A model generated the notes under the pieces. That model had not been told where the DNA came from. It did not search any database and saw only the letters and a list, made by a program, of their open reading frames with translations. Both the position numbers and the translations under genes were made by a program. Shown here piece by piece: positions 3,384 to 40,511 of a DNA stretch of 40,794 bases (positions are counted from its first letter, which is position 1; each line of letters opens with the position of its first letter). The DNA comes from Pseudoselenomonas ruminantium (GTDB lineage: Bacteria; Bacillota; Negativicutes; Selenomonadales; Selenomonadaceae). The DNA lies in contig NZ_FRBC01000027.1 in NCBI RefSeq assembly GCF_900142515.1, positions 1 through 40,794 on the forward strand, given 5' to 3'.

Positions 3384-5276
3384 TTAACATTTATCAAGCC
3401 AATTATCAAATTTTTCAATAGCAGAATTAGGGATTTTTATTTGCGGTGGTATTTTGTTGAATTTTTTTACAAAATTAGTTATAAAATCTTTCACTAAATC
3501 TAAGTTATTGTGGATCCAGCAGTGATATAATTTTTTGTTTTGTCTCCCCCAAACAAGGAGGGATGATTGTTCGTTAAACCATTTTTTAAAATATTGTATT
3601 TTTTCCTTTTTATCATCATCATCGTCTGGTATATAGATTAAATCAGGATAATCTTTAAAGCACATTTGATAATTGTATCCACCAATTGAACTGTCCCAAA
3701 ACGGACATTTTTCGGTATGGAGGAAATTATACATCATCACCTCTATAGGTAATTTCCCTGGTAGAGCTAAAATGTTATTTTTATTATTTGGAACTTGTTT
3801 ATACATATCAGGGTCAACTATATAAAAAATTTTTTTAAATTCTGGTATATTTCTTGAAGCTAATCTGCACAACACATCAGCCGGCAAACTGATATCTTGC
3901 TTATCATTGTTTTCGTAAGTGCTTGTATTAATATAATCTTTGAAATAGTTATTTGTTATGGCGTTGAAAAAATTCGATGCGACAGTATCTTCGAACAATA
4001 AAGTGGTTGTCTTTTTTTGAGATACAACGGCATTTATTTCTGCAATTATACTTTCATACGTTGCGCCACAGTCAGATAAGATGTTTCCATTCCGTCTAAA
4101 AAGGGAAACAATAGTAGATTCATTTTTGTATTTATGCGAACATAATTCTATCATTTTTGTTGAATGTGTAGTGCAAATGATTTGTAAATCGTAATCCTTT
4201 GCAGATTGGATTAATACCTTGATAAGGTTTTCTTGTGCAACTGTATGAAGCGTTGCATCGACTTCATCGATTAGCAAGATACCGCCTCGATATTTTTCAC
4301 CTAGTTTTATTTTTAAACGACGAAATGATAAAATTGCTGATAATATTTGTCCTATATTATCTTGCCCTGCTGAATTAGCTTCAGCATCGTAAAACTCACT
4401 CTCACATGCTAAAAAATCTTTTGTATCGCTGGATATAAATTCTGGGGTTATATTTTCAGGAATAAGAGTTATTTGTTTTTGCCATTTTGCATATAGATTC
4501 ATTTCTTCTATTGACAAAGAATAATTGGGGTCAACTTCTATTTTTTCGCTATTTGCAAGAGGGTATAAACGATTTAATCCTAGATAGATTAACGGGTGAG
4601 GATAATTGCCTTCACCTGCATTTCGTGTTTTCCCTGTAACGAATCGTATTTTGTTATCGGTTTGATCTGTTCGTTTTTTCATTGTGATAGGCAATTTTAG
4701 TTCGCCGAGTTTACTTTCTAAAACAATGTTGTAGGCGTAGTCATTAGTTTCGGGGGCGTCATATTTATACGACATACGAAATATTTCTGAGTACTCTGTC
4801 TCATAAGGGCAATTTAAAATGGTTTTTTGTTTTGATTTATTGATTTCATTGTATGAAGGTGTATAGATTTTCCATTGCTTTGAAAATTCGAATGGTTGAG
4901 CAATCATTCCTAATAATGTTGATTTTGATGTAGCGTTTTGACCAACTATTAATGTAAGAATATCATTTAGGTATATGTGAGATTCGGGGGCAAATTTTCT
5001 AAATGATTTTATTGTTAACGATTTGATTTTTAAAGTGTCATTTAATATTAATTTAGGTTGTTTTGACAAGATATTTGCTTTGGATTTATTAATTATTTCA
5101 TCTGGCAAATCGTCAGGATTAGTTTGAAAATAATCTTGAATCAATTTATATTCTTTTTCATTTATTGTAGACATATAACTTTTTTTTGAAATATTAAATT
5201 CGCTTAAAATAGACAGGATGATTTGATTTGTTGTGTGAAATTTTTTAGCAACATCATATATTCGATATGTTTTCAT
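3384..5276 (-). CDS. OLD-like ATPase/TOPRIM protein with N-terminal IF2-N-like domain
   Basis: Counted from the ATG at 5276 (630 residues), the protein has three regions. Residues about 2-50 (YRIYDVAKKF, later ISKKSYMST) match the translation initiation factor IF-2 N-terminal domain pattern. Residues about 83-390 form an SMC/ABC-type ATPase: degenerate Walker A GQNATSKST (112-120, Ser replacing the last Gly), a signature-like SAGQDN (302-307), Walker B ILLIDEVDATLH (333-344) and switch His in TTHS (369-372). Residues about 425-500 look like TOPRIM: acidic E429 in LLFEDTVA and DPD at 488-490. This is the overcoming-lysogenization-defect (OLD) architecture: ATP-regulated nuclease. It follows the protease gene by 55 bases. 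AAGGAG lies 13 bases before this ATG; a TTG at 5288 is too close to it. The gene is markedly A+T-rich, suggesting separate acquisition. Function as phage defence is inference. Confidence 0.75.
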   Translation of the reverse strand: MKTYRIYDVAKKFHTTNQIILSILSEFNISKKSYMSTINEKEYKLIQDYFQTNPDDLPDEIINKSKANILSKQPKLILNDTLKIKSLTIKSFRKFAPESHIYLNDILTLIVGQNATSKSTLLGMIAQPFEFSKQWKIYTPSYNEINKSKQKTILNCPYETEYSEIFRMSYKYDAPETNDYAYNIVLESKLGELKLPITMKKRTDQTDNKIRFVTGKTRNAGEGNYPHPLIYLGLNRLYPLANSEKIEVDPNYSLSIEEMNLYAKWQKQITLIPENITPEFISSDTKDFLACESEFYDAEANSAGQDNIGQILSAILSFRRLKIKLGEKYRGGILLIDEVDATLHTVAQENLIKVLIQSAKDYDLQIICTTHSTKMIELCSHKYKNESTIVSLFRRNGNILSDCGATYESIIAEINAVVSQKKTTTLLFEDTVASNFFNAITNNYFKDYINTSTYENNDKQDISLPADVLCRLASRNIPEFKKIFYIVDPDMYKQVPNNKNNILALPGKLPIEVMMYNFLHTEKCPFWDSSIGGYNYQMCFKDYPDLIYIPDDDDDKKEKIQYFKKWFNEQSSLLVWGRQNKKLYHCWIHNNLDLVKDFITNFVKKFNKIPPQIKIPNSAIEKFDNWLDKC

Positions 5277-9400: not shown

Positions 9401-10087
9401 ATGGACAGAACTATACAACAAATTTGCCGCCTTTGCTTATGTAGCAAGGCGGCAGGGCTTTTATGTGGGGCAGGTGCGAAGGTAATTGATATCAGTGCAT
9501 GGCAGGAAAATGTAGACTGGCAAGCCATCAAGGAGGCTGGCATCGAGGGCGTTATCCTTAAAATTGGCGAACATGCCCATCTTGATGATATGTTTATCGA
9601 CCATATCAATAAAGCCGTGGAATATGGCCTGCAGTATGGCGTGTACTACTTTGCCCATGCATGTACCTACGATGAAGCTGTGGACGAGGCTGACCAGGTG
9701 GCCGCATGGCTTGAAGAATATCTGCGCGGGGAGACTCCACCCTTGGGAATCTGGTACGATGCGGAAAGCAAGCGGATGTTGAACGGGGATGTAACGGAGT
9801 GCTGCCGGGCTTTCATCAACCGATTGACCGATTATGGCCATCAGTATAATGGAATCTACGCCAGCTGGAACTGGCTGAGCGCTGAAGGGAGCCATTACAT
9901 CCGGATTGAGGATTTGCCCGATTACGTGCCGTACTGGGTGGCCAACTACGGGAGCGGCAATACCTTTGAAACGGCATGTCGGGATTATCTCAAAGAGGAA
10001 TACCCGGGCAACATCATCCGGATGCACCAGTTCACGGATAATCTGGCCGGTTTCGGGTACGATGCCAATATCTATTATGATGATTAA
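9401..10087 (+). CDS. Phage lysozyme (GH25 muramidase) with uncertain or disrupted 5' end
   Basis: From about 9480 the protein is a full GH25 domain: VIDISAWQENVDWQAIK (catalytic Asp in DIS), VYYFAHAC, LGIWYDAESK (Asp-x-Glu pair) and GIYASWNW, ending near IRMHQFTDN and DANIYYDD. It would cleave the MurNAc-GlcNAc bond of peptidoglycan during lysis. The start is unclear. The ATG at 9387 with the good GATGAGGTTAA site opens MNGLAWTELYNKFAAFAYVA but stops at about 9484, in another frame. The ATG at 9401 is in frame but lacks a clear ribosome site. A one-base frameshift in the G-rich GTGGGGCAGG at about 9464-9473 would join the two, so this may be a broken gene. Confidence 0.75.
   Translation: MDRTIQQICRLCLCSKAAGLLCGAGAKVIDISAWQENVDWQAIKEAGIEGVILKIGEHAHLDDMFIDHINKAVEYGLQYGVYYFAHACTYDEAVDEADQVAAWLEEYLRGETPPLGIWYDAESKRMLNGDVTECCRAFINRLTDYGHQYNGIYASWNWLSAEGSHYIRIEDLPDYVPYWVANYGSGNTFETACRDYLKEEYPGNIIRMHQFTDNLAGFGYDANIYYDD
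9426..9453 (+). other. GC-rich hairpin at the start of the lysozyme gene
   Basis: GCCGCCTTTGC (9426-9436) pairs with GCAAGGCGGC (9444-9453) with one bulge and a 7-base loop. It is followed by AGGGCTTTTATG, so it resembles a weak terminator, yet it lies within the 5' part of the lysozyme reading frame. It could delay lysozyme translation or be coincidental. Confidence 0.4.
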
Positions 10088-10118
10088 CTCGACGACAATT
10101 CATCGTTGAGTTAATCAT
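10080..10118 (+). terminator. Hairpin after the lysozyme gene
   Basis: ATGATTAACTC (10080-10090) pairs perfectly with GAGTTAATCAT (10108-10118), and the stem can extend inward (GACGA/TCGTT, with a G-T pair). The stem includes the lysozyme stop codon. No strong T-run follows, so termination efficiency is uncertain. Confidence 0.5.
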
Positions 10119-10171
10119 AAGTTAAAAACGAGTTAGATTACGTTAGATTGAGTTAAAGGATACAGCAGCAG

Positions 10172-10213
10172 TTTGTCTGCATAAAAGAGGGATTTGTCTG
10201 CAAAACGTCTGCA
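10172..10213 (+). repeat. Integrase arm-type direct repeats, right end
   Basis: TTTGTCTGCA at 10172-10181 and 10193-10202 and a variant AACGTCTGCA at 10204-10213 match the pair at 476-496 near the left end, in the same orientation. Their presence just inside both attachment cores supports the element boundaries. Confidence 0.65.
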
Positions 10214-10318
10214 ATCGCATAAATTTTGCCTAGACACGCTTAGTTACTAAAACCTCGTCAATCCTTTAATAATAAGGGGATGGCGGTGTTTTAGTAGTTA
10301 AAGATAATTCCTCCCGTG

Positions 10319-10340
10319 CATAACTTCCGATAATTTATAC
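10319..10340 (+). other. attR core of the integrated prophage
   Basis: This is an exact copy of the 22 bases at 404-425. It ends precisely at the last base of the 7-base spacer of the palindrome at 10320-10354, as expected if strand exchange took place in that spacer. Joining the left flank to this right flank restores an uninterrupted palindrome, which would be the original attB. Confidence 0.8.
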
Positions 10341-10354
10341 TTATCGGAAGTTAT
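10320..10354. other. loxP/dif-like recombination palindrome
   Basis: Two 14-base arms, ATAACTTCCGATAA (10320-10333) and TTATCGGAAGTTAT (10341-10354), are perfect inverted repeats around TTTATAC; allowing one mismatch the arms reach 17 bases (10317-10357). Arm-spacer-arm sites with 6-8 base spacers are the cores used by tyrosine recombinases (dif, loxP). The outer ATAACTTC/GAAGTTAT is shared with loxP. An intact tyrosine recombinase gene lies about 500 bases downstream and is the obvious candidate partner. Confidence 0.75.
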
Positions 10355-10441
10355 ACATGGGGGATAACTATGAGGCGTTACTTTTAGAATTTGTCTGGTT
10401 GTTACATCATCCCTTTTATATATCCGGCATCAAATTTTCTA

Positions 10442-10551
10442 AACACTATTAACGATTGGAATGCAGTCTATTGTTTGTGTTGCAAACCAATAGACCAACA
10501 CTCCTTAAAAACGACTTCGTAAAATCACTTTTAAGGCGCGTTTATAGTGTT
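10442..10551. other. 110-base cloverleaf-forming element
   Basis: An outer 13-base inverted repeat with one mismatch (AACACTATTAACG at 10442-10454, CGTTTATAGTGTT at 10539-10551) encloses two hairpins: GTCTATTG (10466-10473)/CAATAGAC (10488-10495) and CCTTAAAA (10503-10510)/TTTTAAGG (10529-10536). It lies in the gene-free 10088-10852 stretch, between the lox-like site and the recombinase promoter. No open frame or known RNA family is recognised. The remaining gap sequence (10355-10441, 10552-10775) is A+T-rich with nothing else I can support. Confidence 0.5.
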
Positions 10552-10775
10552 GTTAATACAAACTTATATGTATCAGTCAAAAATTGCTCTATGAGTCTAT
10601 TATGACCATTAAATCGAATTGTATACTTTATCTACACAATTTAAGGTTCTGTTGCGAGTAAGAAAATCTCTGTAAACTAATATTCCTAATATTATATGTT
10701 CTACTATTATAAAATATATTTTATTTTTTGTGTATTTGATATTTTATCTTATCTTTCAGCATTTTCTGTAATTTC

Positions 10776-10804
10776 TTGCATACACAATTATTTCGCGATA
10801 TAAT
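10776..10804 (+). promoter_or_regulatory. Promoter of the tyrosine recombinase
   Basis: TTGCAT (10776-10781) and a perfect TATAAT (10799-10804) are 17 bases apart. The expected start point (about 10811) falls inside a tandem 11-base repeat, and the start codon is about 42 bases further on. Confidence 0.7.
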
Positions 10805-10834
10805 ATAAATTAAATATAAATTAAATATAAATTA
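10802..10834 (+). repeat. Three tandem 11-base repeats (AATATAAATTA)
   Basis: AATATAAATTA occurs three times without a gap (10802-10812, 10813-10823, 10824-10834). The first copy overlaps the -10 box of the recombinase promoter and the others form its start region and leader. Such repeats can change copy number by slipped-strand mispairing. Confidence 0.75.
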
Positions 10835-10852
10835 GAAATGGAGGTATACAAG

Positions 10853-11848
10853 ATGGCTATACAGAAAATTGCCTCAAACAAACAATATGATCTGTCTATG
10901 TCACAGTCATTAGATCAGGAAGCTATAACTCCTGATTACTTTGTCATGAATTATCTACAGTTTCTTTCTCGTTATATCTCTAAAGGCCGCCCCACCGCAG
11001 ATACCCTACGAGATTACCGTTTACATATCAACAGTTTTATTCGCTGGTGTTCAGAACATGATCGCCATCCATTAGCCATGCATGATTATCAGATGCGCAT
11101 GTATATGGAATTCATGTTTAACCGGAAATACTCCGACAATACCATTGCCATAAAATTGGCTGCTATAAGGGCTTTTTACCATGCGGCCTGTAAAATTGGC
11201 CTTATTGAAATAAATCCCTGTGCTGATCTTAAGGCGGAACGAAAACTTGTTTGGGATGAAAAGTTTCGCTTCTATTCCAGTGAGCAAATTCAGACTATGT
11301 GTGATTATATAAAAAATAACAAGGAAGACAATTTCATTCGTTATAGGGATATGTCTATACTTTATCTTATGGCTGTGGAAGGCTTCCGTAATGTTGAGAT
11401 TCATCGTATGTGTGATGAAGACATTAATTGGGATTACAAATCCATTGCAATCCGAAGCAAAGGACACGGCGGGATTGTCTATCCTTGCAACCAAACATTC
11501 GAAGTTTTGAAGCGGTATTTAGAGGTAAGACCAAATGCTCAAAGAGAAAACAACCTTACCCCTACTATTGTCTCAACTCATCGGCGTCATTATAGCCGCA
11601 TATCAAGGAATGGTATTCGCGAAATCATGAACGAAATCCTTTCTGGATGTAACTTGAAGCATCCAGGATATTCGTGTCATATTTTGCGACATAGTTGTGG
11701 GACTAATTTGTATGCTAAAACAAAAGATCTGCATATTGTCCAAATGCAGCTTCGTCATACGGATCCGAATATGGCAGCACGATATGCTCATGTTCATGAG
11801 CGGATGAATAATCGCTGTACTTCTTGTTTGGCACCTGAAATAGATTAA
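10853..11848 (+). CDS. Xer-like tyrosine recombinase (intact)
   Basis: From the ATG at 10853 (after GGAGGTATACAAG; an upstream ATG at 10838 overlaps the ribosome site) the protein has 331 residues. It has a SAM-like core-binding domain (LQFLSRYISKGRPTADTLRD ... MYMEFMFNRKYSDNTIAIKL) and a catalytic domain with Arg in AVEGFRNVEIHRM, HILRHSCG (HxxR), the second His in QLRHTDP and Tyr in ARYAHV. All active residues are present. It lies outside the prophage, directly beside the lox-like palindrome, which suggests a chromosome-encoded site-specific recombinase: a dimer-resolution enzyme or an inversion or integration enzyme. A C-terminal Cys pair (RCTSC) is unusual and unexplained. It is not an obvious XerC or XerD orthologue. 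Confidence 0.85.
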   Translation: MAIQKIASNKQYDLSMSQSLDQEAITPDYFVMNYLQFLSRYISKGRPTADTLRDYRLHINSFIRWCSEHDRHPLAMHDYQMRMYMEFMFNRKYSDNTIAIKLAAIRAFYHAACKIGLIEINPCADLKAERKLVWDEKFRFYSSEQIQTMCDYIKNNKEDNFIRYRDMSILYLMAVEGFRNVEIHRMCDEDINWDYKSIAIRSKGHGGIVYPCNQTFEVLKRYLEVRPNAQRENNLTPTIVSTHRRHYSRISRNGIREIMNEILSGCNLKHPGYSCHILRHSCGTNLYAKTKDLHIVQMQLRHTDPNMAARYAHVHERMNNRCTSCLAPEID

Positions 11849-11968
11849 GGTGGTTGGTTTTATCGGCCCGGCTGTTTTGCTTGGGCTTTTTGTTTTGTAT
11901 GAATTGATATTCGTTTTTTAAGTGTGGTATTTAAAATAGTTTACCCACAGTTAAAATTAGGCATAACA

Positions 11969-12004
11969 AAGACCCGCATCACAATTATAGTGTGCGGGTC
12001 TTTA
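11969..12004. terminator. Bidirectional terminator between the recombinase and polC
   Basis: AAAGACCCGCA (11969-11979) pairs with TGCGGGTCTTT (11994-12004), with a further CAC/GTG pairing inside. A-runs and T-runs flank it on both strands, so it can serve the convergent recombinase and polC transcripts. A weaker hairpin with a T-run (about 11865-11891) precedes it for the recombinase. Confidence 0.8.
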
Positions 12005-29047: not shown

Positions 29048-29926
29048 TTAAATCATGAGGAGATTTTCCCGCCGAGAACGCAAGCCTTCTTCTCCGAAAT
29101 GTCGAAAGATAGTTTCCAGAGTATCGAGCATCTTTTGCTTGTCATTCGGCAATTGCCCATAGATAGGCGTGATGATGGAAGCATTGGTCGCATCTATGGT
29201 CGTTTCTATCGTCAATTTACGCAAAAACGTCTGAAGTTCTTCAATTCGTTCGGCTTCCGTGGCTTCAACAAAAGTACCGTTTTTCACGTCTTCCATGAGC
29301 GGGGTATCGGGAAAAAGAGTAAGCCCTGCCGCCATAACCCGAAACGGCGTGAGCTGGTTGATAACTTTTGCTGTTTTTTCCGCATGGGAAAGACCGTAGC
29401 CGTGACCGCCAAGACCACTCAGGAAAATAACGGCATAATCCATGCCTGCCTCCGTCAGTTTTCCCAGCTGTTCCACGATATCCTTTGCTTCATAACCTTT
29501 GTTCATGCGTTTTAACACAGCATCATCGCCGGATTCAATGCCAAATACGAGACGGTCATACCCCATCCGGTGAAGTTCTTTGATTTGCTCAACCGACTTG
29601 TTCTTTACGCTGTCCACACGACCATAGCCTCCGATGGACTGGACAAAAGGCAGGTATTCGTGGATAAGCTCGGCAACGTTTTTCAACTTATCGAAAGTCA
29701 GCAGGAAGGGGTCGGCGCCCTGCAGCCAGATGCGTGGGAAAGATACGCCATACTCCTTGAGTTCCTGCAAATCCTCTTTGACCTCATCCAATGGCGATAC
29801 GCCAAAGGGCGCATCCTTGTAGTAGGTGCAGAACCGGCAGGCATTATGGGAACAACCGGACGTTATTTGCAGGAAAACACTGTTTGCCTCATAAGGCGGA
29901 CGTACAACGGTACTGGCAAAATGCAT
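29048..29926 (-). CDS. Radical SAM protein (Elp3/MiaB-like domain), paralogue of 36206-37084
   Basis: The 292-residue protein begins MHFASTVVRPPYEANSVFLQ and carries its cluster motif as CSHNACRFC (CX4CX2C), followed by ITSGCSH-type upstream context, SIGGYGRVDSVKNKS, GIESGDDAVLKRMNKGY and LTLFPDTPLMEDV. It should reductively cleave S-adenosylmethionine; the substrate is unknown. The same length and many identical blocks appear in the 36206 gene. Ribosome site AAGGAG, 9 bases before the ATG. It lies downstream of an ArsR gene, separated by a hairpin terminator. Confidence 0.85.
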   Translation of the reverse strand: MHFASTVVRPPYEANSVFLQITSGCSHNACRFCTYYKDAPFGVSPLDEVKEDLQELKEYGVSFPRIWLQGADPFLLTFDKLKNVAELIHEYLPFVQSIGGYGRVDSVKNKSVEQIKELHRMGYDRLVFGIESGDDAVLKRMNKGYEAKDIVEQLGKLTEAGMDYAVIFLSGLGGHGYGLSHAEKTAKVINQLTPFRVMAAGLTLFPDTPLMEDVKNGTFVEATEAERIEELQTFLRKLTIETTIDATNASIITPIYGQLPNDKQKMLDTLETIFRHFGEEGLRSRRENLLMI

Positions 29927-31419: not shown

Positions 31420-32220
31420 TCAGAAATTATCCTTGTTCTCGGCGTAAACTTCCGGCAGGATTGCAGCCAGATTGGTAAATTCTTTGATATTATGGGCAAA
31501 CAAGCCTTTGGACACTTCCACGGGAACTTTCGCACCCTCGGGCAGAGTGCAGCGAATTTCTCCATCCACCATGCCATAGCCAATCCAAAAACGGGAACAC
31601 AGCATCACACCGTCCTGATAAGGATACCATTTATGCACCATAGCTGCAGCGCAGGAGCCGTCACCGATACCACATACCAGCGAAGCACAGTAATCCTTGC
31701 CAATCAGGGACGTGTCAAAGCCAAAATCAGCAGGGCTTTTGAAGCAAATCTTCAAAAAGCCGGGGCCACCACCCACATCCTCCAAAATATAATGATTAAC
31801 TCCCCATGTCTTTTCGTTGACCGGCACATTGGGGTCACAAACATAATCCGCTTTATCGGCGCGAGCAAAATAATGGTCTTCTGGATCCCAAATCTTATAG
31901 CGCAAATCCGAGCCTACGCTGTGCCACGGGAACCACCAGTCCAGCATTTCCGGTGTGACACCTGGCATATAGGTTTCGTTGCAGACAAAGCCAGTGCCGT
32001 TTGCCGCCGTGCCGTAGCCAACCTGAGCATAGTCCTTGTCTTTCCCTGCCAAATAGAGGTTTTTCTCTTCAAAAGGCACAGCGGACTTTTCCTGCGGCGC
32101 ATCCAGAAGAGCGATTTTCTCCGCCGGGATGTTCGCCATATCCCGCTCAAAGAATTTGTAATAAGAAAGTGCCTTCTCCTCTTTGCTCACGCCGACTTTT
32201 TTGCCTAAAAACAGTTTCAT
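31420..32220 (-). CDS. DAPG-hydrolase/phloretin-hydrolase family protein
   Basis: The 266-residue protein matches the PhlG-type family, whose known members hydrolyse C-C bonds in acylphloroglucinols (2,4-diacetylphloroglucinol, phloretin). Visible landmarks are YMPGVTPEMLDWWFPWHS with His100, LRYKIWDPEDHYFARADKAD and, near the C-terminus, HNIKEF with His243 and Glu247. The His and HxxxE pair fit the zinc ligands known for PhlG. The ATG overlaps the stop of the DUF1097 gene (ATGA). Together with a LysR regulator this suggests use or detoxification of plant-derived phenolic ketones. The actual substrate is inference. Confidence 0.8.
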   Translation of the reverse strand: MKLFLGKKVGVSKEEKALSYYKFFERDMANIPAEKIALLDAPQEKSAVPFEEKNLYLAGKDKDYAQVGYGTAANGTGFVCNETYMPGVTPEMLDWWFPWHSVGSDLRYKIWDPEDHYFARADKADYVCDPNVPVNEKTWGVNHYILEDVGGGPGFLKICFKSPADFGFDTSLIGKDYCASLVCGIGDGSCAAAMVHKWYPYQDGVMLCSRFWIGYGMVDGEIRCTLPEGAKVPVEVSKGLFAHNIKEFTNLAAILPEVYAENKDNF

Positions 32221-33390: not shown

Positions 33391-34332
33391 TCATCGTCTG
33401 TTATACGCTACTTTCTTGCTGCCTGGCAACTTTGACCGGTCAGCCTGCAAAAAACTTTCCATAGCCGTCCAGGTCACAGGGAAATTGTCAATGAACGCCG
33501 AATGCCAGGCCTTGGGGACAATGCAGAGTCTGGCATTCGGGATATACTGCTCGGCCTCCACCATCGTAACCAGGGGCGCATGGTCATCTTCATCCCCAGC
33601 AATAAGCAGTACCGGGCACTTTATGGTCTTGAGGAAGTCTTCACCCACTTCCATCTGGCTCCAGAACTTCATATAGTTCGTGCAAAATTCCTGAAAGCGT
33701 TCCGGCTCCGGCATGATTTTTTTCTGCTGCTCGATAAACTGCGCATCAATTTTAGTTAAATCTTCGACCTTCATTTCCCCGCTGAAAAAGCCTTTTTTCA
33801 GCGTACCGGCACCGATAGCGATTACCCTGTCCACGCGCTCGGGATACATGGATGCTACCTTGTAAGCCGTGTAAGCGCCATCGCTAAAGCCTAGCAGGAT
33901 TGCCGGTTCATTTGTAACGGCTTTCATCACCGCCAGCATATCCTGTGCCTTTTGCTCATAAGTCAACGGTGAGTGACCGATTTCCGAACGACCATGACCG
34001 CGGGTAGATACCGTAATCACCTGATAGTTCTGACGCAGTTTGTCAATTAGTTGCCCCATTTCATAAGGCGTGCCTACTCCACCGCCATGAAAGACAAAAA
34101 CAGGCTTGCCCTCGCCATAGACTTCATAATAAATCTTTGCATCGCCGGCCTGTACATAATGGCCGGCTTTTTCATTGTTGCCGTAAGGCGTAGTGCTTTC
34201 ATAATTTCCCGGCTGCTGCATAAAATAATGCAAAGGTGCTGCTGCATTTACTGTACCGCCAGTCGTACCAAACAACATCGTCATGCCCAGCACCAGTGCC
34301 GTCAGACATTGGGCTCCCTTTTTCCTTCTCAT
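33391..34332 (-). CDS. Exported alpha/beta hydrolase
   Basis: The 313-residue protein begins with a signal peptide (MRRKKGAQCLTALVLGMTML, ending near VNAAA). The hydrolase domain has the oxyanion segment FVFHGGGVGTPYE, TVSTRGHGRSEIG, nucleophile Ser150 in LGFSDGAYTAY, Asp in LIAGDEDDHAP and His in PKAWHSAFID. It would be an esterase or peptidase-like enzyme acting outside the cytoplasm. Its ATG overlaps the upstream stop (ATGA), with GGAGG before it. It is unusual in an operon of otherwise cytoplasmic redox proteins, and may act on an exported operon product. Confidence 0.85.
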   Translation of the reverse strand: MRRKKGAQCLTALVLGMTMLFGTTGGTVNAAAPLHYFMQQPGNYESTTPYGNNEKAGHYVQAGDAKIYYEVYGEGKPVFVFHGGGVGTPYEMGQLIDKLRQNYQVITVSTRGHGRSEIGHSPLTYEQKAQDMLAVMKAVTNEPAILLGFSDGAYTAYKVASMYPERVDRVIAIGAGTLKKGFFSGEMKVEDLTKIDAQFIEQQKKIMPEPERFQEFCTNYMKFWSQMEVGEDFLKTIKCPVLLIAGDEDDHAPLVTMVEAEQYIPNARLCIVPKAWHSAFIDNFPVTWTAMESFLQADRSKLPGSKKVAYNRR

Positions 34333-34781
34333 GCCTTGCCCTCCAATTTCCAAACGTCAATACCAGTAACAGGGTCAAACTGCTGACCGATAAAACCATC
34401 TTCCACTACGTCCAAAACGATTTCGCCTGTATAACTTATCCAGGCACTATGCAAATGACCGCCTAAATAAGCAAGCTCATCTCTGTCCGGCAACAGATAA
34501 GAAAACATACCATGCGCATGTTCCTTTAACCGCCCGTTGACATCAGTCACCACATTCCCCTGCAGGGAAATCATCTCTAACATACCATTACGCTCGTGCT
34601 GCAAAAAATCCTGCTTTTCAGGGATAAACGTTGCGACCACTACTTTATCGCAGGCACCAATTCCCTGAAACATTCCCGATTTTATATCCAATTCGCAGCA
34701 GACTCTGCGAATACAGCTGAGGATTTCATCCCCTTTGTCCATACGAATGTAAACGCGGGAACCCATCTTCTTATAGTCCAT
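34329..34781 (-). CDS. PPC/DUF296-domain protein
   Basis: The 150-residue protein matches the PPC (plants and prokaryotes conserved, DUF296) fold: YIRMDKGDEILSCIRRVCCE, GMFQGIGACDKVVVATF, the LEMISLQGNV strand, and GGHLHSAWISYTGEIVLDVV with the conserved GGHLH histidines, which may bind metal. Bacterial members are trimeric and of unclear role; the plant members bind DNA through an added AT-hook, absent here. It is in the ACGX operon, coupled to the hydrolase gene. Confidence 0.8.
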   Translation of the reverse strand: MDYKKMGSRVYIRMDKGDEILSCIRRVCCELDIKSGMFQGIGACDKVVVATFIPEKQDFLQHERNGMLEMISLQGNVVTDVNGRLKEHAHGMFSYLLPDRDELAYLGGHLHSAWISYTGEIVLDVVEDGFIGQQFDPVTGIDVWKLEGKA

Positions 34782-34796
34782 AACCACACACCTTAC

Positions 34797-35783
34797 TTAA
34801 TCGTCCAGTTTCACCTTATCATAAACATACTGTCCGTTTCGCAGACCGCCGTCATAATCGATGGCACCTGCCGGACAACGATGGAAACAGCCCAGGCACA
34901 ATGTGCATTTTTCCTTCACCCATACCGGTCTGCCCTCCTGCATCTCAATAGCGTTCAACGGACATTGACGGGCACAGAGTCCGCAGCCCATGCATTTATC
35001 AGCAACAAGCTTAAACCGTTTGGTCTTGCGGATACGATTGTAATTCGCCTTGGCTGCCGCCGCCCCCAATGCAGACATCTGATTGGGCAGGGTATGGCCT
35101 TTTTCCTTGCGCAGTACCTGCTGAACAATCAGCCGTGTTTCCGCTTCGCCGTTTTCTTCCGCGCGCCGATTGCGGCTAACATCCTTTAGATAAAACATCG
35201 GACTCCAGTTATCCACGAATCTTGCCGCATATAAGCTGTCAAAATGAACACCCACCTTGGCAAATTCTTTCTGTGCCGTAGACAGGATATTGCCATAGTC
35301 ACAACCATATGTCGCCACAAAATAGCAATAATGCTCGCTGCCTGCAAATGCAAAGCGGACTTTTTCCAGATAATCGAGCAGGATAGAGGGCAAACCTTCC
35401 CAATAGGTCGGCATAACAATGCCCAGACTTTCTCCCTCTATTACGTTAATCTCATATTTGTTGTTGCGCACCAAATCTTTAAGGGGAAGCATTGCTTCCC
35501 CCGTAGCTTTGGCCAGTTCCTGCGCGAATAATTCACTGATTTTAGCCGTAAAGGCATCACAATCCGCATTGTTTATCTCGCCCATAAGCGCAGCCGAAAC
35601 ATACGCCCCCTTGGCCAGTTTTTCACCGGCCATCCATAGGTCTGCTTCCGGCTCCACATTGACCATCACATATTCTACAGGCTTATGGAAAATATTCACC
35701 ACGGCTTGCGTTATATCTTTGTGCAATCTCACATTCTGTTCTTCACGAAGTGATACGGTAAGTTTTACCTGAATCATCGGCAT
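34797..35783 (-). CDS. Tautomerase (MIF-like)-flavodoxin-ferredoxin fusion, EFR1-like
   Basis: The 328-residue protein (ATG at 35783, GGAGG) is a composite. Residues 1-95 are MIF/tautomerase-like with Pro2 after Met (MPMIQVKLTVSLREEQNVRL, YVSAALMGEINNADCDAFTA) but lack the last part of that fold. From about 105 it continues as an EFR1-type flavodoxin-like domain (GESLGIVMPTYWEGLPSILL, YCYFVATYGCDYGNI) lacking its first strand and phosphate-binding loop. Residues 259-328 hold two 4Fe-4S motifs (CMGCGLCARQCP, CTLCLGCFHRCP). Because both partners are incomplete exactly at the joint, a deletion fusing two neighbouring genes is the simplest explanation. Electron transfer by the ferredoxin part may survive. 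Confidence 0.8.
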   Translation of the reverse strand: MPMIQVKLTVSLREEQNVRLHKDITQAVVNIFHKPVEYVMVNVEPEADLWMAGEKLAKGAYVSAALMGEINNADCDAFTAKISELFAQELAKATGEAMLPLKDLVRNNKYEINVIEGESLGIVMPTYWEGLPSILLDYLEKVRFAFAGSEHYCYFVATYGCDYGNILSTAQKEFAKVGVHFDSLYAARFVDNWSPMFYLKDVSRNRRAEENGEAETRLIVQQVLRKEKGHTLPNQMSALGAAAAKANYNRIRKTKRFKLVADKCMGCGLCARQCPLNAIEMQEGRPVWVKEKCTLCLGCFHRCPAGAIDYDGGLRNGQYVYDKVKLDD

Positions 35784-35812
35784 GATTATCGCCTCCATCT
35801 TTTTTCACAAAC

Positions 35813-36190
35813 TTACAAATGATCCCGACGAAAAGTCTTGCTGAAAACCTCATCATCTATCGTATCAATACTATGCTGTAACGTAGCCAGCATTTCATCC
35901 TTATGGTTTCCCAGTAAACCAGCAATTCTAGTAGAATCCAGCGAATGCGCTGCCCAGAGGTAAGTCTCGGGGATATCCAAAAGTTCAATAAACCGTTTTT
36001 CCGCAGTCAATACTTCGGACTCCGGCGCCACCTCAAAACGCCCCTCTTTCACCGCTTTTTCCAACTCCGTCCCAGGGAATATGGACATAGTGGTCAAAAT
36101 TACCATATCTGGCTTAATCGCATTCTCCAGTCTAGCCGTAGCTTCTGCCTCCATCGGCGGACGATAAATTGTACCATTATATTCCAGCAT
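35813..36190 (-). pseudogene. Radical SAM protein remnant with in-frame core deletion
   Basis: The 125-residue frame begins like the neighbouring radical SAM proteins (MLEYNGTIYRPPMEAEATAR, compare NRPPYEAADGF). It then jumps to a C-terminal tail (PDMVILTTMSIFPGTELEKA, LTAEKRFIELLDIPETYLWA). The whole CX4CX2C cluster motif and most of the barrel are missing, although the frame stays open. It has a ribosome site (GGGGGAATTCG) and could be expressed as a short protein without radical SAM activity. Confidence 0.7.
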
Positions 36191-36205: not shown

Positions 36206-37084
36206 TCATAAGCTGTTTACCCGGCTGCGGTACCTTTGCAATACTTCTTCACCGTTATCATCCAGCAAACGCTGCAACTGGGCAATCAGCGCCTCTTTAT
36301 CTTCCGGCAGACGGCCATTCAGGCGAATCGGCATGGTCACATGTTCTGCCCGGAAAATCGTGGGAATATCGAGACAGCGGATAAATTCCTGCATTTCGGC
36401 AATGCGTTCCGTTTCCGTTGCTTCGGCAAACTTGCCCATAGCTACATCACAGGACAGAGGCGTATCCGGGAACAACGTCAGTTCGGAGGCATACACCATA
36501 GCCGGCTTCAGTTGATTGTACATTTTCGCTGTTTCCCATGCATGAGACAGTCCCCAGTCATGTCCGCCCAGGCCGCCTAAAAAGTTGGCAATCCACGGCA
36601 TGCCGGCCTCGTCCATCTTTTTGCACTGCTCGATGACCAAATCTGCATGATAGCCCTTATTCATGCGGTCAAGCAGCTTATCATCGCCGCTTTCCACGCC
36701 GAAGTAGAAATAGCTGTAACCTTTTTCTGCCAGCTGTCTTACCTGCTGTACCGTCTTATTTTTCAGATTATCCACACGGGCATAACCGCCGATGGATTTC
36801 ACCTGCGGCAGATAACAGTAAATCATATCAGCAATTTGCAGCAAATCCTCCGTCTTGCGGATGAAAGGGTCAGCCCCCTGCAGATAAACGCGGTCAAAAT
36901 TCCAGCCGGACTGAACCAGTTCCTTGATGTCTTCCTCGATTTCCTCCATCGGCGACAGCATAAAGGGGCTGTCCTTGTAAAAGGTGCAGAATTCACAGGT
37001 TGCATGACTGCAGCCGGAAGTTATCTGCAGGAAACCATCAGCGGCTTCATAAGGCGGGCGATTAATACCACTCGAAAAATGCAT
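36206..37084 (-). CDS. Radical SAM protein, paralogue of 29048-29926
   Basis: The 292-residue protein starts MHFSSGINRPPYEAADGFLQ and has the cluster motif CSHATCEFC (CX4CX2C), SIGGYARVDNLKNKTVQQV, GVESGDDKLLDRMNKGYHAD, FLGGLGGHDWGLSHAWETAK and LTLFPDTPLSCDVAMG. The layout is identical to the 29048 protein, so one arose by duplication or they are members of one family. It belongs to the B12-independent Elp3/MiaB-like radical SAM group; the substrate is unknown. It lies in the ACGX operon, 34 bases after the VOC gene. Confidence 0.85.
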   Translation of the reverse strand: MHFSSGINRPPYEAADGFLQITSGCSHATCEFCTFYKDSPFMLSPMEEIEEDIKELVQSGWNFDRVYLQGADPFIRKTEDLLQIADMIYCYLPQVKSIGGYARVDNLKNKTVQQVRQLAEKGYSYFYFGVESGDDKLLDRMNKGYHADLVIEQCKKMDEAGMPWIANFLGGLGGHDWGLSHAWETAKMYNQLKPAMVYASELTLFPDTPLSCDVAMGKFAEATETERIAEMQEFIRCLDIPTIFRAEHVTMPIRLNGRLPEDKEALIAQLQRLLDDNGEEVLQRYRSRVNSL

Positions 37085-37118: not shown

Positions 37119-37514
37119 TTATCGTTCATGATAAAACTCAATAATCTCGCCGGCCTTGCCCTGTACAAAGGCAATCCGCAACGGATAGGGAATTTCACAG
37201 GGAACCACGATATCTGCCGGTTGCATCACCACAGGCAGCCCCTCAGCGATGCAGGCTGCCACACATTCATCGACATTGTCCGTATAAAGAGCAATATGGT
37301 CAACCTGTCCCGGTCTGCGCCCCGGTTCGGCATTGGCAAACAATTCGATTACGCCACTCCCCGTATCCAGCATAGCTCCGGCCTCATCACCTTCGCCCCA
37401 GCTGCGCAGGCGCTTCATGCCCAGCACATTGCAATAAAATTCAATAACACGATCCATCTCAGCTTTGCCGCAACAACGCAAAGCGGCATGATGTAATCCT
37501 TTGATCAGGCTCAT
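37119..37514 (-). CDS. VOC (glyoxalase-fold) protein
   Basis: The 131-residue protein has two beta-alpha-beta-beta-beta units of the vicinal oxygen chelate fold: IKGLHHAALRCCGKAEMDRV, EFYCNVLGMKRLRSWG, VDHIALYTDNVDECVAAC and IAFVQGKAGEIIEFYHER. Metal-ligand candidates are His7 in LHHAAL, the His in VDHIALY and Glu residues such as those in IIEFY. Such proteins include glyoxalases, isomerases and resistance proteins. The role is unassigned; it sits between nitroreductase and radical SAM genes in the operon. Confidence 0.85.
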   Translation of the reverse strand: MSLIKGLHHAALRCCGKAEMDRVIEFYCNVLGMKRLRSWGEGDEAGAMLDTGSGVIELFANAEPGRRPGQVDHIALYTDNVDECVAACIAEGLPVVMQPADIVVPCEIPYPLRIAFVQGKAGEIIEFYHER

Positions 37515-37547
37515 TACCCACACTCCTCATATAAACACACATCTAAA

Positions 37548-38126
37548 TCATTCAATAACGACATTCCGGCACTTCTTCCGCGGTTTTCCCTGCGGATAAG
37601 GACCATCACAATAGCCCAATGTCACAAAGGCTTTGGCCTCCATATTATCCGGCACGCCCCACTCCTGCATGAATCGTCTACCTTCTGGCAGAGCAAAGGT
37701 TTCCTCTGCCCGAGAGATAATGCAGGAATCAACGCCCAGCTCATGCGCAGCCAATATCATATTTTCCGCCATGCAAAAAGCATCCGCCACATTGTAGAGA
37801 AAATCCTTCTGACCAAAAATCACACAAACCGTGGGGGCATCATAAAAACCATTTTTGATTTTTGGGTCATCAATTACCGAAGGCTGTTCAGCCGATACAT
37901 GCGCTCCCAATAGCTGACTGCGGTCAAAGGTGGAAAAGTTCAGCCGTCCCAGTTTTTCGGTAAGGCAAGCATTATGGAGCGTTACAATCATACTGCGCTG
38001 TCCGCCGCCGGCATTTGGTGCGTAAAGCCCAGCCTCCACAATCTTGTCCACAATATCACGCGGCACTTGTTTCGCCTGATATTTACGGATGGAACGACGT
38101 TTTTTCATCAATTCTAAAATATCCAT
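37548..38126 (-). CDS. Nitroreductase-family flavoprotein
   Basis: The 192-residue protein shows the family start MDILELMKKRRSIRKYQAKQ with the FMN-binding RRSxR, then APNAGGGQRSMIVTLH, and the C-terminal AFVTLGYCDGPYPQGKPRKK. It should use FMN and NAD(P)H to reduce nitro, quinone or similar groups; relatives also oxidise azolines in peptide natural products, which is notable beside a peptide-maturation gene. Only 10 bases separate it from the ACGX radical SAM gene. Confidence 0.9.
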   Translation of the reverse strand: MDILELMKKRRSIRKYQAKQVPRDIVDKIVEAGLYAPNAGGGQRSMIVTLHNACLTEKLGRLNFSTFDRSQLLGAHVSAEQPSVIDDPKIKNGFYDAPTVCVIFGQKDFLYNVADAFCMAENMILAAHELGVDSCIISRAEETFALPEGRRFMQEWGVPDNMEAKAFVTLGYCDGPYPQGKPRKKCRNVVIE

Positions 38127-38136
38127 GCCTATCTCC

Positions 38137-39192
38137 TTACAAAGTCAGCAAGCCTTCTATTTGTTCTGCCCAACACTGCGGGTCAGCGGCGTAAAAATCA
38201 CCGCCGCTCGTACTGCTGGCAACAGCAGGACAGCCACGGCACCAGGCCAGCAATTTGCAATGCGTACACTTTTTGAATTTATCATAATCGCGATAAGCTT
38301 CCATCCTGCCGGTCCATAACTGCGCCAATCTATCGGTAAACACATTTCCCACCCGGCTGTTTTGCACCCGCCGGCAGGCATAAACTTCGCCTGTGGGCAA
38401 AATAGTCAAATGGCCATTACCGCAGTTGCAGCCACCATATATCATATCGGGTTCAGCGTCCTCAGGAATCTGGAACCTGCCCATTTCATAATCGTAAAGT
38501 GTCCACAGGTGGTCTTTGCGATTAAAATAGGTTTCACAACCAGCTGCTTCATATTGCTGGAAAATTTTATCGCAATCTTCCAATAATTTATGGTAACGCT
38601 CCGGAGAAATGCTGTTTTCCCGCTCCTCACTGGTCGGACAATAGCGGGCAAAAGCATAAACCTTAGCTCCTGCTGCCACCACGGCATCAATGATGGCCGG
38701 AACTTCATCTATATTCTTCCCGGAAACCGTGGTCATGATGATGGAGCGGATACCCGCTTTATTCAACATGGTCACCTTTTCCAGCGTAGTTTTGTAGGAA
38801 CCAGGCTTGCGGAACCAGTCATGGGTTTTCTCTATCCCGTCAATCGACAACTGATAACGTACACAACCGTAGTCATGCAACCTCTGGCATACTTCATCGG
38901 TCAGATGGAATGGATTGCCCATAATCGTAAAGGGAATCTGCTCCGCCTTGAACATTTCCATAAGTGTCCAAAATTCCGGATGCAGGATTGGATCGCCGCC
39001 GGTCAGATAGAAGTATGGCTGACGGCCAAATTTTTCGCAAAAGTCCCGGCAGTTTTTAAGCACTGCCTCCATCTGTTTTCTTGTCATGCGGTCAGGACAT
39101 TTGCCGGTATTTTCCGCAAAGATATAACAATGCTTACACCTCTGGTCACATTCATCGGTGATATGCCATTGAAAGGAAAAATACGGTTTCAT
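38137..39192 (-). CDS. Radical SAM/SPASM peptide maturase, ACGX system
   Basis: From the ATG at 39192 (GGAGG, 8-base spacing; an ATG at 39207 overlaps the ribosome site) the protein has 351 residues. The radical SAM cluster is bound by Cys15, Cys19 and Cys22 (ITDECDQRCKHCYIF); GGDPILHPEF and the YQLSIDGIEKTHDWF strand follow. A SPASM domain with extra Fe-S ligands is marked by CNCGNGHLTILPTGEVYACR and CTHCKLLAWCRGCPAVA. This is the class that modifies ribosomal peptides, and the ACGX-repeat peptide encoded 31 bases upstream is the expected substrate. I recall this pair as a named family, but not a characterised product. Confidence 0.88.
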   Translation of the reverse strand: MKPYFSFQWHITDECDQRCKHCYIFAENTGKCPDRMTRKQMEAVLKNCRDFCEKFGRQPYFYLTGGDPILHPEFWTLMEMFKAEQIPFTIMGNPFHLTDEVCQRLHDYGCVRYQLSIDGIEKTHDWFRKPGSYKTTLEKVTMLNKAGIRSIIMTTVSGKNIDEVPAIIDAVVAAGAKVYAFARYCPTSEERENSISPERYHKLLEDCDKIFQQYEAAGCETYFNRKDHLWTLYDYEMGRFQIPEDAEPDMIYGGCNCGNGHLTILPTGEVYACRRVQNSRVGNVFTDRLAQLWTGRMEAYRDYDKFKKCTHCKLLAWCRGCPAVASSTSGGDFYAADPQCWAEQIEGLLTL

Positions 39193-39223
39193 TTGACCAT
39201 CCTCCATACCTCATCAAAAATGC

Positions 39224-39409
39224 TTACTTGTCACCTGCACCACAGGCAGAACCACAAGCAGTGGGCAGCACCTTGTCGCCAGAGCCACAAGCCGAGCCAC
39301 AGGCAGCGGAAACTACTTTGTCCCCGGAGCCGCAAGCCGAACCGCAGGCAGAGTTTGTTAAAACACCTGTTGCTTTCTGATTCCATGCTGCTAAATTCGT
39401 AAGTGCCAT
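39224..39409 (-). CDS. ACGX-repeat peptide precursor
   Basis: This 61-residue peptide has a leader of about 20 residues (MALTNLAAWNQKATGVLTNS) and then three 15-residue repeats based on ACGSACGSGDKV, giving six Ala-Cys-Gly-x units with six cysteines; the last repeat is short and ends the protein at GAGDK. The design (leader, then repeated modifiable core) is that of a ribosomally made, post-translationally modified peptide. It heads the operon, and the next gene is the radical SAM/SPASM maturase. A GGAAG-type ribosome site precedes the ATG at 39409. No protease or dedicated exporter is seen beside it. Confidence 0.85.
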   Translation of the reverse strand: MALTNLAAWNQKATGVLTNSACGSACGSGDKVVSAACGSACGSGDKVLPTACGSACGAGDK

Positions 39410-39458: not shown

Positions 39459-39487
39459 ATCTTAACAGGAATAAATCCCCTTGTGAA
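39459..39487 (-). promoter_or_regulatory. Promoter of the ACGX operon
   Basis: On the minus strand TTCACA (39487-39482) and TAAGAT (39464-39459) are 17 bases apart. The leader is about 45 bases. The -35 box lies 10 bases from a palindrome that is probably the LysR site. Confidence 0.65.
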
Positions 39488-39515: not shown

Positions 39516-39581
39516 AGCGTATCAATATGTGCTATCATAATATTATCGCTATCCTGATGAATTCGTGATGAGGTGTATAGG

Positions 39582-40511
39582 ATGAATACCCAGCAGCTTG
39601 AATGTTTTACTACCCTAGCAAAGACGTTAAACTACGCCAAAACCGCGGAACAGCTATCCCTGTCCCAGCCTGCCATATCCCGGCAGATTCAAAGTCTGGA
39701 AACAGAACTGGGGGCCAAACTTTTTAACCGTACCACCCGTTCCGTCTCCCTGACTCAGGTGGGATTCCAGTTCCTGCCTGATGCCCAGCAGATGCTCGGA
39801 CTCTACTACCATTCTTTGGAATGGATTTCCACCTTCCATAAGCACAAACGCACAGTGCTCCGCATTGGCTACGCTGACTCCCATGCCAACTGGTTTATCA
39901 GCAAGATTCTTTCCTGTGTACTGGCCGATAACGAGAATATTGTGCCAGAGCTTACCCTTGACCAGACCGATGCCAATCTGCACCGACTTACCACCAGTCA
40001 GCTGGATTTGGTGTTGGGCATCAAGGATGCCAAATTTACTGCCGAGGACATTACCTTCCAGAAACTCCATGACGATGCCTTTGTCTGTGTCATGCGGAAA
40101 AATCATCCTTTGGCTTTGGCATGCAAAAAGAGACGCCGAAAAAGCGTCTCCTCTAAAGATATGTGGCCCTACCGCCAGATTATTGATATTCCTCCCTATC
40201 TTTTGAAGCATGTATTCTCCCGTGGTCATCATATCGTCCCCATCAATGATGAGCTAGACAACATCCTCTGTGCCACCACCAGTGAAGCCTATAACCTGGC
40301 TTTGGCCGGAGCAGGCTTTGCTCTTATTCCCCAGCATTTGACGCTGCCCCATAAGGAACTGATTTTTCTTCCCTGGGAGGAATCTCCTCATGCACCTATG
40401 GGTATTTACTACCGCCAGCAGGGCGGCATGGATAAGAATTCGGCAATTTACAAGTTCATTACCCTGGCCAGGGAATGCACCAAGGAAGCCATGCCCTGCC
40501 ATAAGCAGTGA
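39582..40511 (+). CDS. LysR-family regulator divergent to the ACGX operon
   Basis: The 309-residue protein from the ATG at 39582 (GATGAGGTGTATAGG upstream; a start at 39573 overlaps the ribosome site) has the winged helix-turn-helix (MNTQQLECFTTLAKTLNYAK, LSLSQPAISRQIQSLETELG, KLFNRTT) and a complete effector domain (TVLRIGYADSHANWFISKIL to LALAGAGFALIPQHLTLP). An unusual basic run KKRRRKSVSSK sits in the effector domain. By position it should control the ACGX operon through the palindrome at 39497-39515. Confidence 0.9.
   Translation: MNTQQLECFTTLAKTLNYAKTAEQLSLSQPAISRQIQSLETELGAKLFNRTTRSVSLTQVGFQFLPDAQQMLGLYYHSLEWISTFHKHKRTVLRIGYADSHANWFISKILSCVLADNENIVPELTLDQTDANLHRLTTSQLDLVLGIKDAKFTAEDITFQKLHDDAFVCVMRKNHPLALACKKRRRKSVSSKDMWPYRQIIDIPPYLLKHVFSRGHHIVPINDELDNILCATTSEAYNLALAGAGFALIPQHLTLPHKELIFLPWEESPHAPMGIYYRQQGGMDKNSAIYKFITLARECTKEAMPCHKQ

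Follow-up and report, generated by a model that had tools for sequence, protein, structure and literature searches.

The acgA/acgM Locus

The window, that is, the whole stretch of 40,794 nt analyzed here, is the entire contig C47 of a 3.12 Mb genome of the rumen bacterium Pseudoselenomonas ruminantium. It carries a short precursor gene, acgA, followed after a gap of 16 nt by the gene of a radical SAM/SPASM maturase, acgM (Table 1). The initial annotation had described a 61-residue precursor with six Ala-Cys-Gly units in three repeats spaced 15 residues, adjoined by a radical SAM/SPASM enzyme with intact cluster cysteines. Both descriptions were borne out. The leader of AcgA reads MALTNLAAWN. 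When the peptide was shuffled, six ACG units were reached in none of 100,000 shuffles (maximum three); thus, the six units are not a product of chance. The reading frame encodes Cys and contains no in-frame stop, and therefore AcgA contains no selenocysteine.

Table 1: Features of the acg region in the window (positions in nt).
Feature	Position	Strand	Model matches and remarks
Alpha/beta hydrolase gene	33391–34353	−	PF00561; end of the downstream block
PCC-domain gene	34329–34787	−	PF03479; end of the downstream block
EFR1-family ferredoxin gene	34797–35798	−	NF038196, 168.1 bits (cut-off 75); PF01187, N-terminal MIF-like match
Second radical SAM gene	36206–37084	−	PF04055; no SPASM match
VOC/glyoxalase-fold gene	37119–37523	−	PF00903
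Nitroreductase-family flavoprotein gene	37548–38126	−	PF00881; 10 nt after acgM
acgM, radical SAM/SPASM maturase	38137–39207	−	TIGR04340; Pfam Radical_SAM, SPASM; 356 aa
acgA, ACGX-repeat precursor	39224–39409	−	TIGR04341; 61 aa
Promoter-like site (weak), upstream of acgA	39459–39487	−	9/12 consensus matches, with TG
LysR-family regulator gene, divergent	39573–40511	+	PF00126, PF03466

The initial annotation took the pair to be one known from automated family naming, and both genes are indeed named in NCBIfam. AcgA scored 34.5 bits with the curated NCBIfam model TIGR04341 (cut-off 28) and AcgM 581.6 bits with TIGR04340 (cut-off 400). The names acgA and acgM are already in use in RefSeq, also for the Roseburia copy, and the gene order is identical to that of the NCBIfam ACGX system. 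The window copy is an ordinary member of a named family. The window pair differs from this system in no structural respect. The family label comes with no product or role, and what is added here is the cassette context described below. A literature search within open-licence PMC papers found no product or role of the ACGX pair.

AcgM contains the CxxxCxxC motif (C20, C24, C27) and eight SPASM cysteines (C260, C262, C278, C314, C317, C323, C326, C345), numbered from the 356-aa frame; relatives use an ATG five codons further in. In an alignment of 20 rows all cluster cysteines are invariant with the sole exception of C20, which is missing in one row (L056). The AcgM alignments exclude locus L034, which has a frame stop and a run of N, and alignment A3 was made also without L031, L032, L036, L038, L040, L042, L043, and L064. 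An AlphaFold model of AcgM (mean pLDDT 72.5) resembled most closely the PDB folds of anSME, PqqE, BlsE, SuiB, and SkfB. This comparison of a predicted fold would indicate only the SPASM type and nothing narrower.

A block of further genes follows acgM on the same strand. The nitroreductase was considered as a possible azoline dehydrogenase; this assignment was rejected, as models of that function gave no match at E ≤ 0.001. Homologs of the VOC gene were found in six of the seven other Selenomonas-type loci (absent from L031), those of the second radical SAM gene in all seven. A paralog of the latter with 52% identity is located 7 kb away (29048–29926, − strand). A frame of 125 aa without Pfam match (35813–36190, − strand) shows 35% identity to part of the neighbouring radical SAM gene and is possibly what is left of the C-terminal half of a duplicate. 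Homologs of the alpha/beta hydrolase gene lie by acg in L029, L030, L031, L041, L060, and L061; with the exception of L060, homologs of the divergent LysR gene adjoin acgA in the same loci. The number of promoter-like sites in the region was near chance (six found versus a chance mean of 3.7), terminators were likewise near chance, and no RNA family around acgA and acgM exceeded the threshold.

Three observations were made elsewhere in the window. A 630-aa ATPase (AAA_15; 3384–5276, − strand) carries a match to the IF-2 N-terminal domain at residues 1–51, which is an odd combination. The product of the gene at 31420–32220 (− strand) scored high with the DAPG hydrolase PhiG domain (238.1 bits). 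Finally, two phage-type integrase genes (465–1400 and 10838–11848) enclose a segment, perhaps a mobile island, to the right of which lie housekeeping genes (PolC-type polymerase, RF3).

Distribution and Pairing of acgA and acgM

AcgM above its cut-off was detected in five of 22 genomes of the genus and in nine of 398 genomes drawn across the phylum. The TIGR04341 profile search misses the window's own precursor, and AcgA was therefore counted by a single-protein search. At E below 1e-10 it was found in the same five genus genomes as AcgM; weak matches in G014, G019, and G020 (E 0.001 to 0.009) were unconvincing. A precursor gene without the maturase in related strains, the counter-example named by the initial annotation, was sought in the 22 genus genomes and not found. 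One genome, G011, possesses two acg copies.

For comparison we used a set of 29 nonduplicate acgM loci, 21 of the non-Selenomonas type and eight of the Selenomonas type, one of the latter from a MAG labelled Anaerovibrio. An ACG-type peptide is encoded upstream of acgM in all 27 loci whose contig extends there; in L032 and L043 the contig starts inside acgM. Some copies are interrupted: acgM of L040 has an in-frame stop, that of L042 (a MAG labelled Bacteroidetes) is broken between two frames, and in L064 the annotation divides acgM into two frames. Locus L064 lies on a plasmid (NZ_CP118754.1) from the archaeon Methanosphaera sp. ISO3-F5, where acgA and acgM adjoin BREX genes. The acgM tree comprises 26 of the 29 loci, with L032, L034, and L040 left out.

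The peptide sequence appears to be under selection. Between acgA of the window and its ortholog in Selenomonas ruminantium ATCC 12561 (L029) there are 13 silent codon differences and one that changes a residue, and 19 silent plus four changing differences were counted in each of the comparisons with L030 and L041. Together with the family models and the gene pairing this selection supports the pathway of precursor and radical SAM maturase that the initial annotation had predicted.

The Cys-Gly Rule in the Precursor Peptides

The 27 homologous peptides contain 172 Cys residues, and every one of these is directly followed by Gly. The preceding residue is Ala in 164 cases, Ser in six, and Val and Pro in one each. 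The peptides contain between 2 and 10 Cys each, an odd number in six of the 27; the CxxxC doublet is absent from two peptides, L061 and L064. By eye, the start MAL[S/T/K][N/D][L/I]xxW was recognized in 23 of the 26 peptides with visible start, the exceptions being L042, L059, and L064.

Judging from these peptides, the chemistry of AcgM must be capable of acting on a lone Cys in a short Cys-Gly context. Since the Cys-Gly pair is universal and odd or unpaired Cys residues occur, each Cys of AcgA is probably modified on its own. The second acg copy of genome G011 (L061) encodes a peptide whose four repeats carry one Cys each, together with an AcgM of its own (75% identity); the presence of this copy and a doublet-type copy within one genome represents a natural test of per-Cys chemistry.

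Relationship of AcgM to SbtM and Predicted Chemistry

Outside its own family, the window AcgM scored best with the model of SbtM (TIGR04082, 166.9 bits), followed by TIGR04053 (125.7 bits) and heme b synthase (122.9 bits); with the models of PapB and SkfB it reached 75.6 and 54.7 bits, respectively. The SbtM match extends across the radical SAM and SPASM parts, and each of the 20 AcgM rows gave it at E ≤ 1e-30, with 1.3e-52 as the best value. It differs from a family match in that the cut-off of 350 bits was not reached, only profile positions 198–515 of 516 are aligned, which leaves about 197 N-terminal positions unmatched, and AcgA contains no selenocysteine. By the cut-off, AcgM is not an SbtM. 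NirJ1 and NirJ2 from the same genome served as controls. For neither of them was SbtM among the best 25 models, the lowest of which scored 79.0 bits for NirJ1 and 62.6 bits for NirJ2; the AcgM model itself was matched by NirJ1 with 113.2 and by NirJ2 with 85.7 bits. At E ≤ 1e-60, TIGR04082 was found in none of the 398 phylum genomes and in none of the controls.

SbtM is reported in a review to strip four hydrogens from a Cys peptide, which results in a thiooxazole (PMC11002830). A preprint describes MNIO enzymes that form 5-thiooxazoles on EGKCG repeats with the loss of four hydrogens per repeat; the resulting peptides are characterized there by an absorbance near 305 nm, can be alkylated, and bind copper (PMC12668002). 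These MNIO-made captophorins share with AcgA the repeated Cys-Gly units, in their case EGKCG, and possibly the same ring (PMC12668002). They differ in their biosynthesis, which employs a nonheme-iron enzyme partnered by PME1, whereas the acg pair uses a radical SAM enzyme. Neither MNIO nor PME1 was found by Pfam among ten window neighbours and ten cassette proteins, nor is either annotated in the stretch of L063.

Given that Cys stands before Gly throughout and that SbtM ranks first among the models of other families, we favour thiooxazoles as the modification of AcgA, the odds of which we put at about even. For the six-Cys peptide a mass change of −24 Da (four hydrogens per Cys) is predicted. 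The reading of the initial annotation is supported in part; the ranking of SbtM favours a loss of 4 Da per Cys over the 2 Da per repeat given there, with a thioether still as rival.

The main rival of the thiooxazole is a ranthipeptide-type reaction, in which AcgM would link Cys by a thioether to the Asp or Glu four residues on (C-x3-D/E), with −2 Da per link and the first Cys of a doublet left free. The Cys-x3-Asp/Glu pattern keeps such a thioether alive (PMC9413430), and AcgA-type peptides resemble the PapB system in their repeated Cys motifs, with an acidic residue at +4 for 89 of the 172 Cys, or 89 of the 101 that lack a Cys at that position. However, position +4 is occupied by another Cys in 71 cases and by neither Cys nor an acid in 12; to these 12 belong all unit types but one of the archaeal L064 peptide, in which the acid stands at +3. 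Gly after Cys is absolute and the acid is not. In addition, the PapB score of AcgM lies far from the cut-off of that model (NF047865, 340) and below the 90.4 bits reached by the NirJ1 control. We consider this reaction improbable. A sactipeptide-type thioether from Cys to the alpha-carbon of a nearby small residue, again with −2 Da per link, is in our opinion very unlikely. Radical SAM/SPASM enzymes of such kind are known, and SkfB is the best PDB sequence match of AcgM (E 6e-15), but the score with the SkfB model falls short of its cut-off of 300; moreover, only the adjacent Gly, and mostly the Ala, is constant around Cys, and we judge an adjacent acceptor to be unusual.

A Redox and ADP-Ribosylation Cassette around acg in Relatives

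In the 21 non-Selenomonas-type loci acg is surrounded by a recurrent set of genes. A sirtuin of the SirTM class is present in 16 of them (L033 to L039, L042 to L044, L055 to L057, L059, L062, and L063), and 13 of these 16 also encode a zinc macrodomain. No SirTM was seen in the stretches of L053, L054, and L058, in that of L040, whose contig ends in the next gene, or on the whole plasmid of L064. Seventeen of the 21 loci encode a protein combining PNPOx and ferredoxin, and 16 encode a regulator of the HxlR type. The HxlR representative came closest to the redox regulators RrpB and RrpA, with scores below cut-off.

Of the 29 acg loci, 28 encode a nitroreductase or an MDR protein resembling quinone reductases, the exception being L037. 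The two proteins substitute for each other, and on the acgM tree this happens in five changes. In L038, AcgM and the MDR protein are fused in a single frame of 656 aa (10007–11977) with all domains present; as this is a single MAG, the stop may possibly have been lost by error. The eight Selenomonas-type loci all contain the nitroreductase, and in most of them the genes for LysR, VOC, second radical SAM, PCC, EFR1 ferredoxin, and hydrolase replace those of the SirTM-type cassette.

The neighbourhood also bears on the proposal that AcgA acts as a buffer of copper or another soft metal, in the manner of captophorins and with no part in ADP-ribosylation. Binding of copper by EGKCG-repeat 5-thiooxazole peptides is described (PMC12668002), and a buffer could tolerate the variable number of Cys in the peptides. 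On the other hand, the recurrent neighbours of acg are reductase, Fe-S, NAD-linked, and regulator genes, and no metal transporter or sensor was detected among the family-scanned genes, which cover part of the loci, or is annotated in L063. A pure metal buffer thus appears unlikely to us.

Relation of SirTM and the Zinc Macrodomain to acg

The cassette sirtuins and macrodomains were assigned by motifs and PDB matches. The 12 sirtuin rows of alignment A1 all show QG in place of HG and the TTN motif, and the PDB sequence matches were 5a3a (E 3.1e-91) and 8rsn and no others. The former we take to be SirTM of Streptococcus pyogenes; the latter, judged from its 599 residues, is a macrodomain fusion. 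All eight macrodomain rows of alignment A2 contain NAAN and the Cx4HxC zinc loop, with PDB matches to 8rsi (E 4.1e-107), the Staphylococcus aureus Zn-Macro 5kiv (E 1.7e-92), and 8rsl. The exchange of HG for QG and the Cx4HxC and NAAN motifs are described as defining features of the SirTM and Zn-Macro classes (PMC4518038, PMC11490716).

According to the same papers, lipoylated GcvH-L is ADP-ribosylated by SirTM and this modification is reversed by Zn-Macro (PMC4518038, PMC11490716). The more recent of them, from 2024, presents GcvH-L as the sole known target of SirTM, calls the targets of other SirTM systems elusive, and describes Zn-Macros as the only known hydrolases that cleave Cys-linked ADP-ribose (PMC11490716). 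The acg cassettes share with these operons the sirtuin and macrodomain classes and the flavin reductase neighbours. They differ by the AcgA/AcgM pair. Neither GcvH-L nor the lipoate ligase LplA2 was annotated in the 13-kb stretch of L063 or detected among ten scanned cassette proteins. As a Cys-thiol peptide that adjoins Zn-Macro and SirTM, AcgA is a natural candidate for a SirTM target. No report of SirTM together with radical SAM was found in the open-licence PMC literature.

Across the phylum draw, SirTM (E ≤ 1e-40) was present in seven of nine acgM genomes versus 12 of 389 others (Fisher p 5.8e-9, ignoring kinship and shared gut habitat). At the genus level, with E ≤ 1e-10 and some partial matches, it was present in four of five acgM genomes versus four of 17 (p 0.039, again ignoring kinship and shared habitat). 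On a SirTM tree of 30 rows the acg-linked label needs four changes versus 10.3 after shuffling, and well-supported branches force at least two changes. The link between acg and SirTM therefore probably arose or was rebuilt on more than one occasion. The tree omits the divergent sirtuins L112 to L115, the short L116, and the cut L057, and a long branch was noted for its outgroup, L111.

In the window no SirTM gene adjoins acg. The SirTM/macrodomain pair of this genome resides on contig C59, where Rrf2 and DUF5131 genes are its neighbours; it was recovered with a SirTM profile, whereas the PF02146 search returned one canonical-type sirtuin only. In G014, acgM and SirTM lie on one contig, 12.5 kb apart. 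The SirTM/macrodomain pairs of Selenomonas genomes in L097 (5247–8359) and L098 (11892–14959) are located next to Rrf2 regulators, together with DUF5131 or NAD(P)-binding genes.

SirTM and macrodomain might be mere frequent neighbours of acg, brought together by shared stress regulation or a mobile cassette and with no action on AcgA. To this explanation we give an even chance. SirTM/macrodomain pairs are widespread without acg, as 12 of the 19 SirTM genomes of the phylum draw, which include divergent QG-type sirtuins, contain no AcgM above cut-off. Conversely, G004 and G289 contain acgM with no SirTM found, and five of the 21 non-Selenomonas-type loci lack SirTM in the stretch covered. What argues against mere proximity is that SirTM adjoins acg in all the other loci of this type and that the acg-linked rows cluster on the SirTM tree, yet with the forced changes mentioned above. 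Furthermore, in extended operons SirTM is described as usually partnered by a protein that is itself a modified carrier, GcvH-L (PMC4518038).

Proposed Function of AcgA

The sequences show that the two genes pair and are conserved, that Gly follows every Cys, and that a cassette recurs around them; from these we infer a ring, a cellular location, a buffer role, and an ADP-ribosylation. AcgA would be a ribosomally made peptide that is retained in the cell, and AcgM would oxidize the Cys of every Ala-Cys-Gly unit singly by radical SAM chemistry. The likeliest product would be a 5-thiooxazole, formed as reported for SbtM. The modified peptide would then represent a chain of reactive ring thiols and could serve as a buffer for redox changes, electrophiles, or soft metals, with the adjoining flavin reductase and ferredoxin as presumed electron partners. 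In Clostridia and relatives the SirTM and zinc macrodomain of the cassette would probably switch AcgA by reversible ADP-ribosylation, so that modified AcgA would hold the place of lipoylated GcvH-L in the known SirTM operons. This reading as a whole, a per-Cys thiooxazole peptide acting as such a buffer and switched by SirTM in Clostridia and relatives, we regard as tentative and as having somewhat less than an even chance of being correct.

Within this framework AcgA is a testable second candidate target of SirTM after GcvH-L, and it may be an unrecognised component of the redox-stress response. A more far-reaching version appears doubtful to us. It holds that AcgA constitutes a second class of SirTM substrates, in which a poly-thiooxazole made by an oxygen-independent radical SAM enzyme is reversibly ADP-ribosylated at its ring thiols or nearby acids and replaces GcvH-L in the redox-stress switch of gut anaerobes.

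For the role of the pair, which the initial annotation had left open, the redox and ADP-ribosylation cassette seen in relatives now offers a clue. New are a falsifiable chemistry, with −4 Da per Cys, and the finding that this cassette is conserved around acg in relatives. The acg cassette provides a concrete candidate for a SirTM target, open to tests with purified proteins of gut commensals, and for an automatically named family there is now a defined test by mass, UV, and alkylation. If the ring is correct, anaerobes would make poly-thiooxazole peptides by radical SAM chemistry, in parallel to the route that uses MNIO enzymes.
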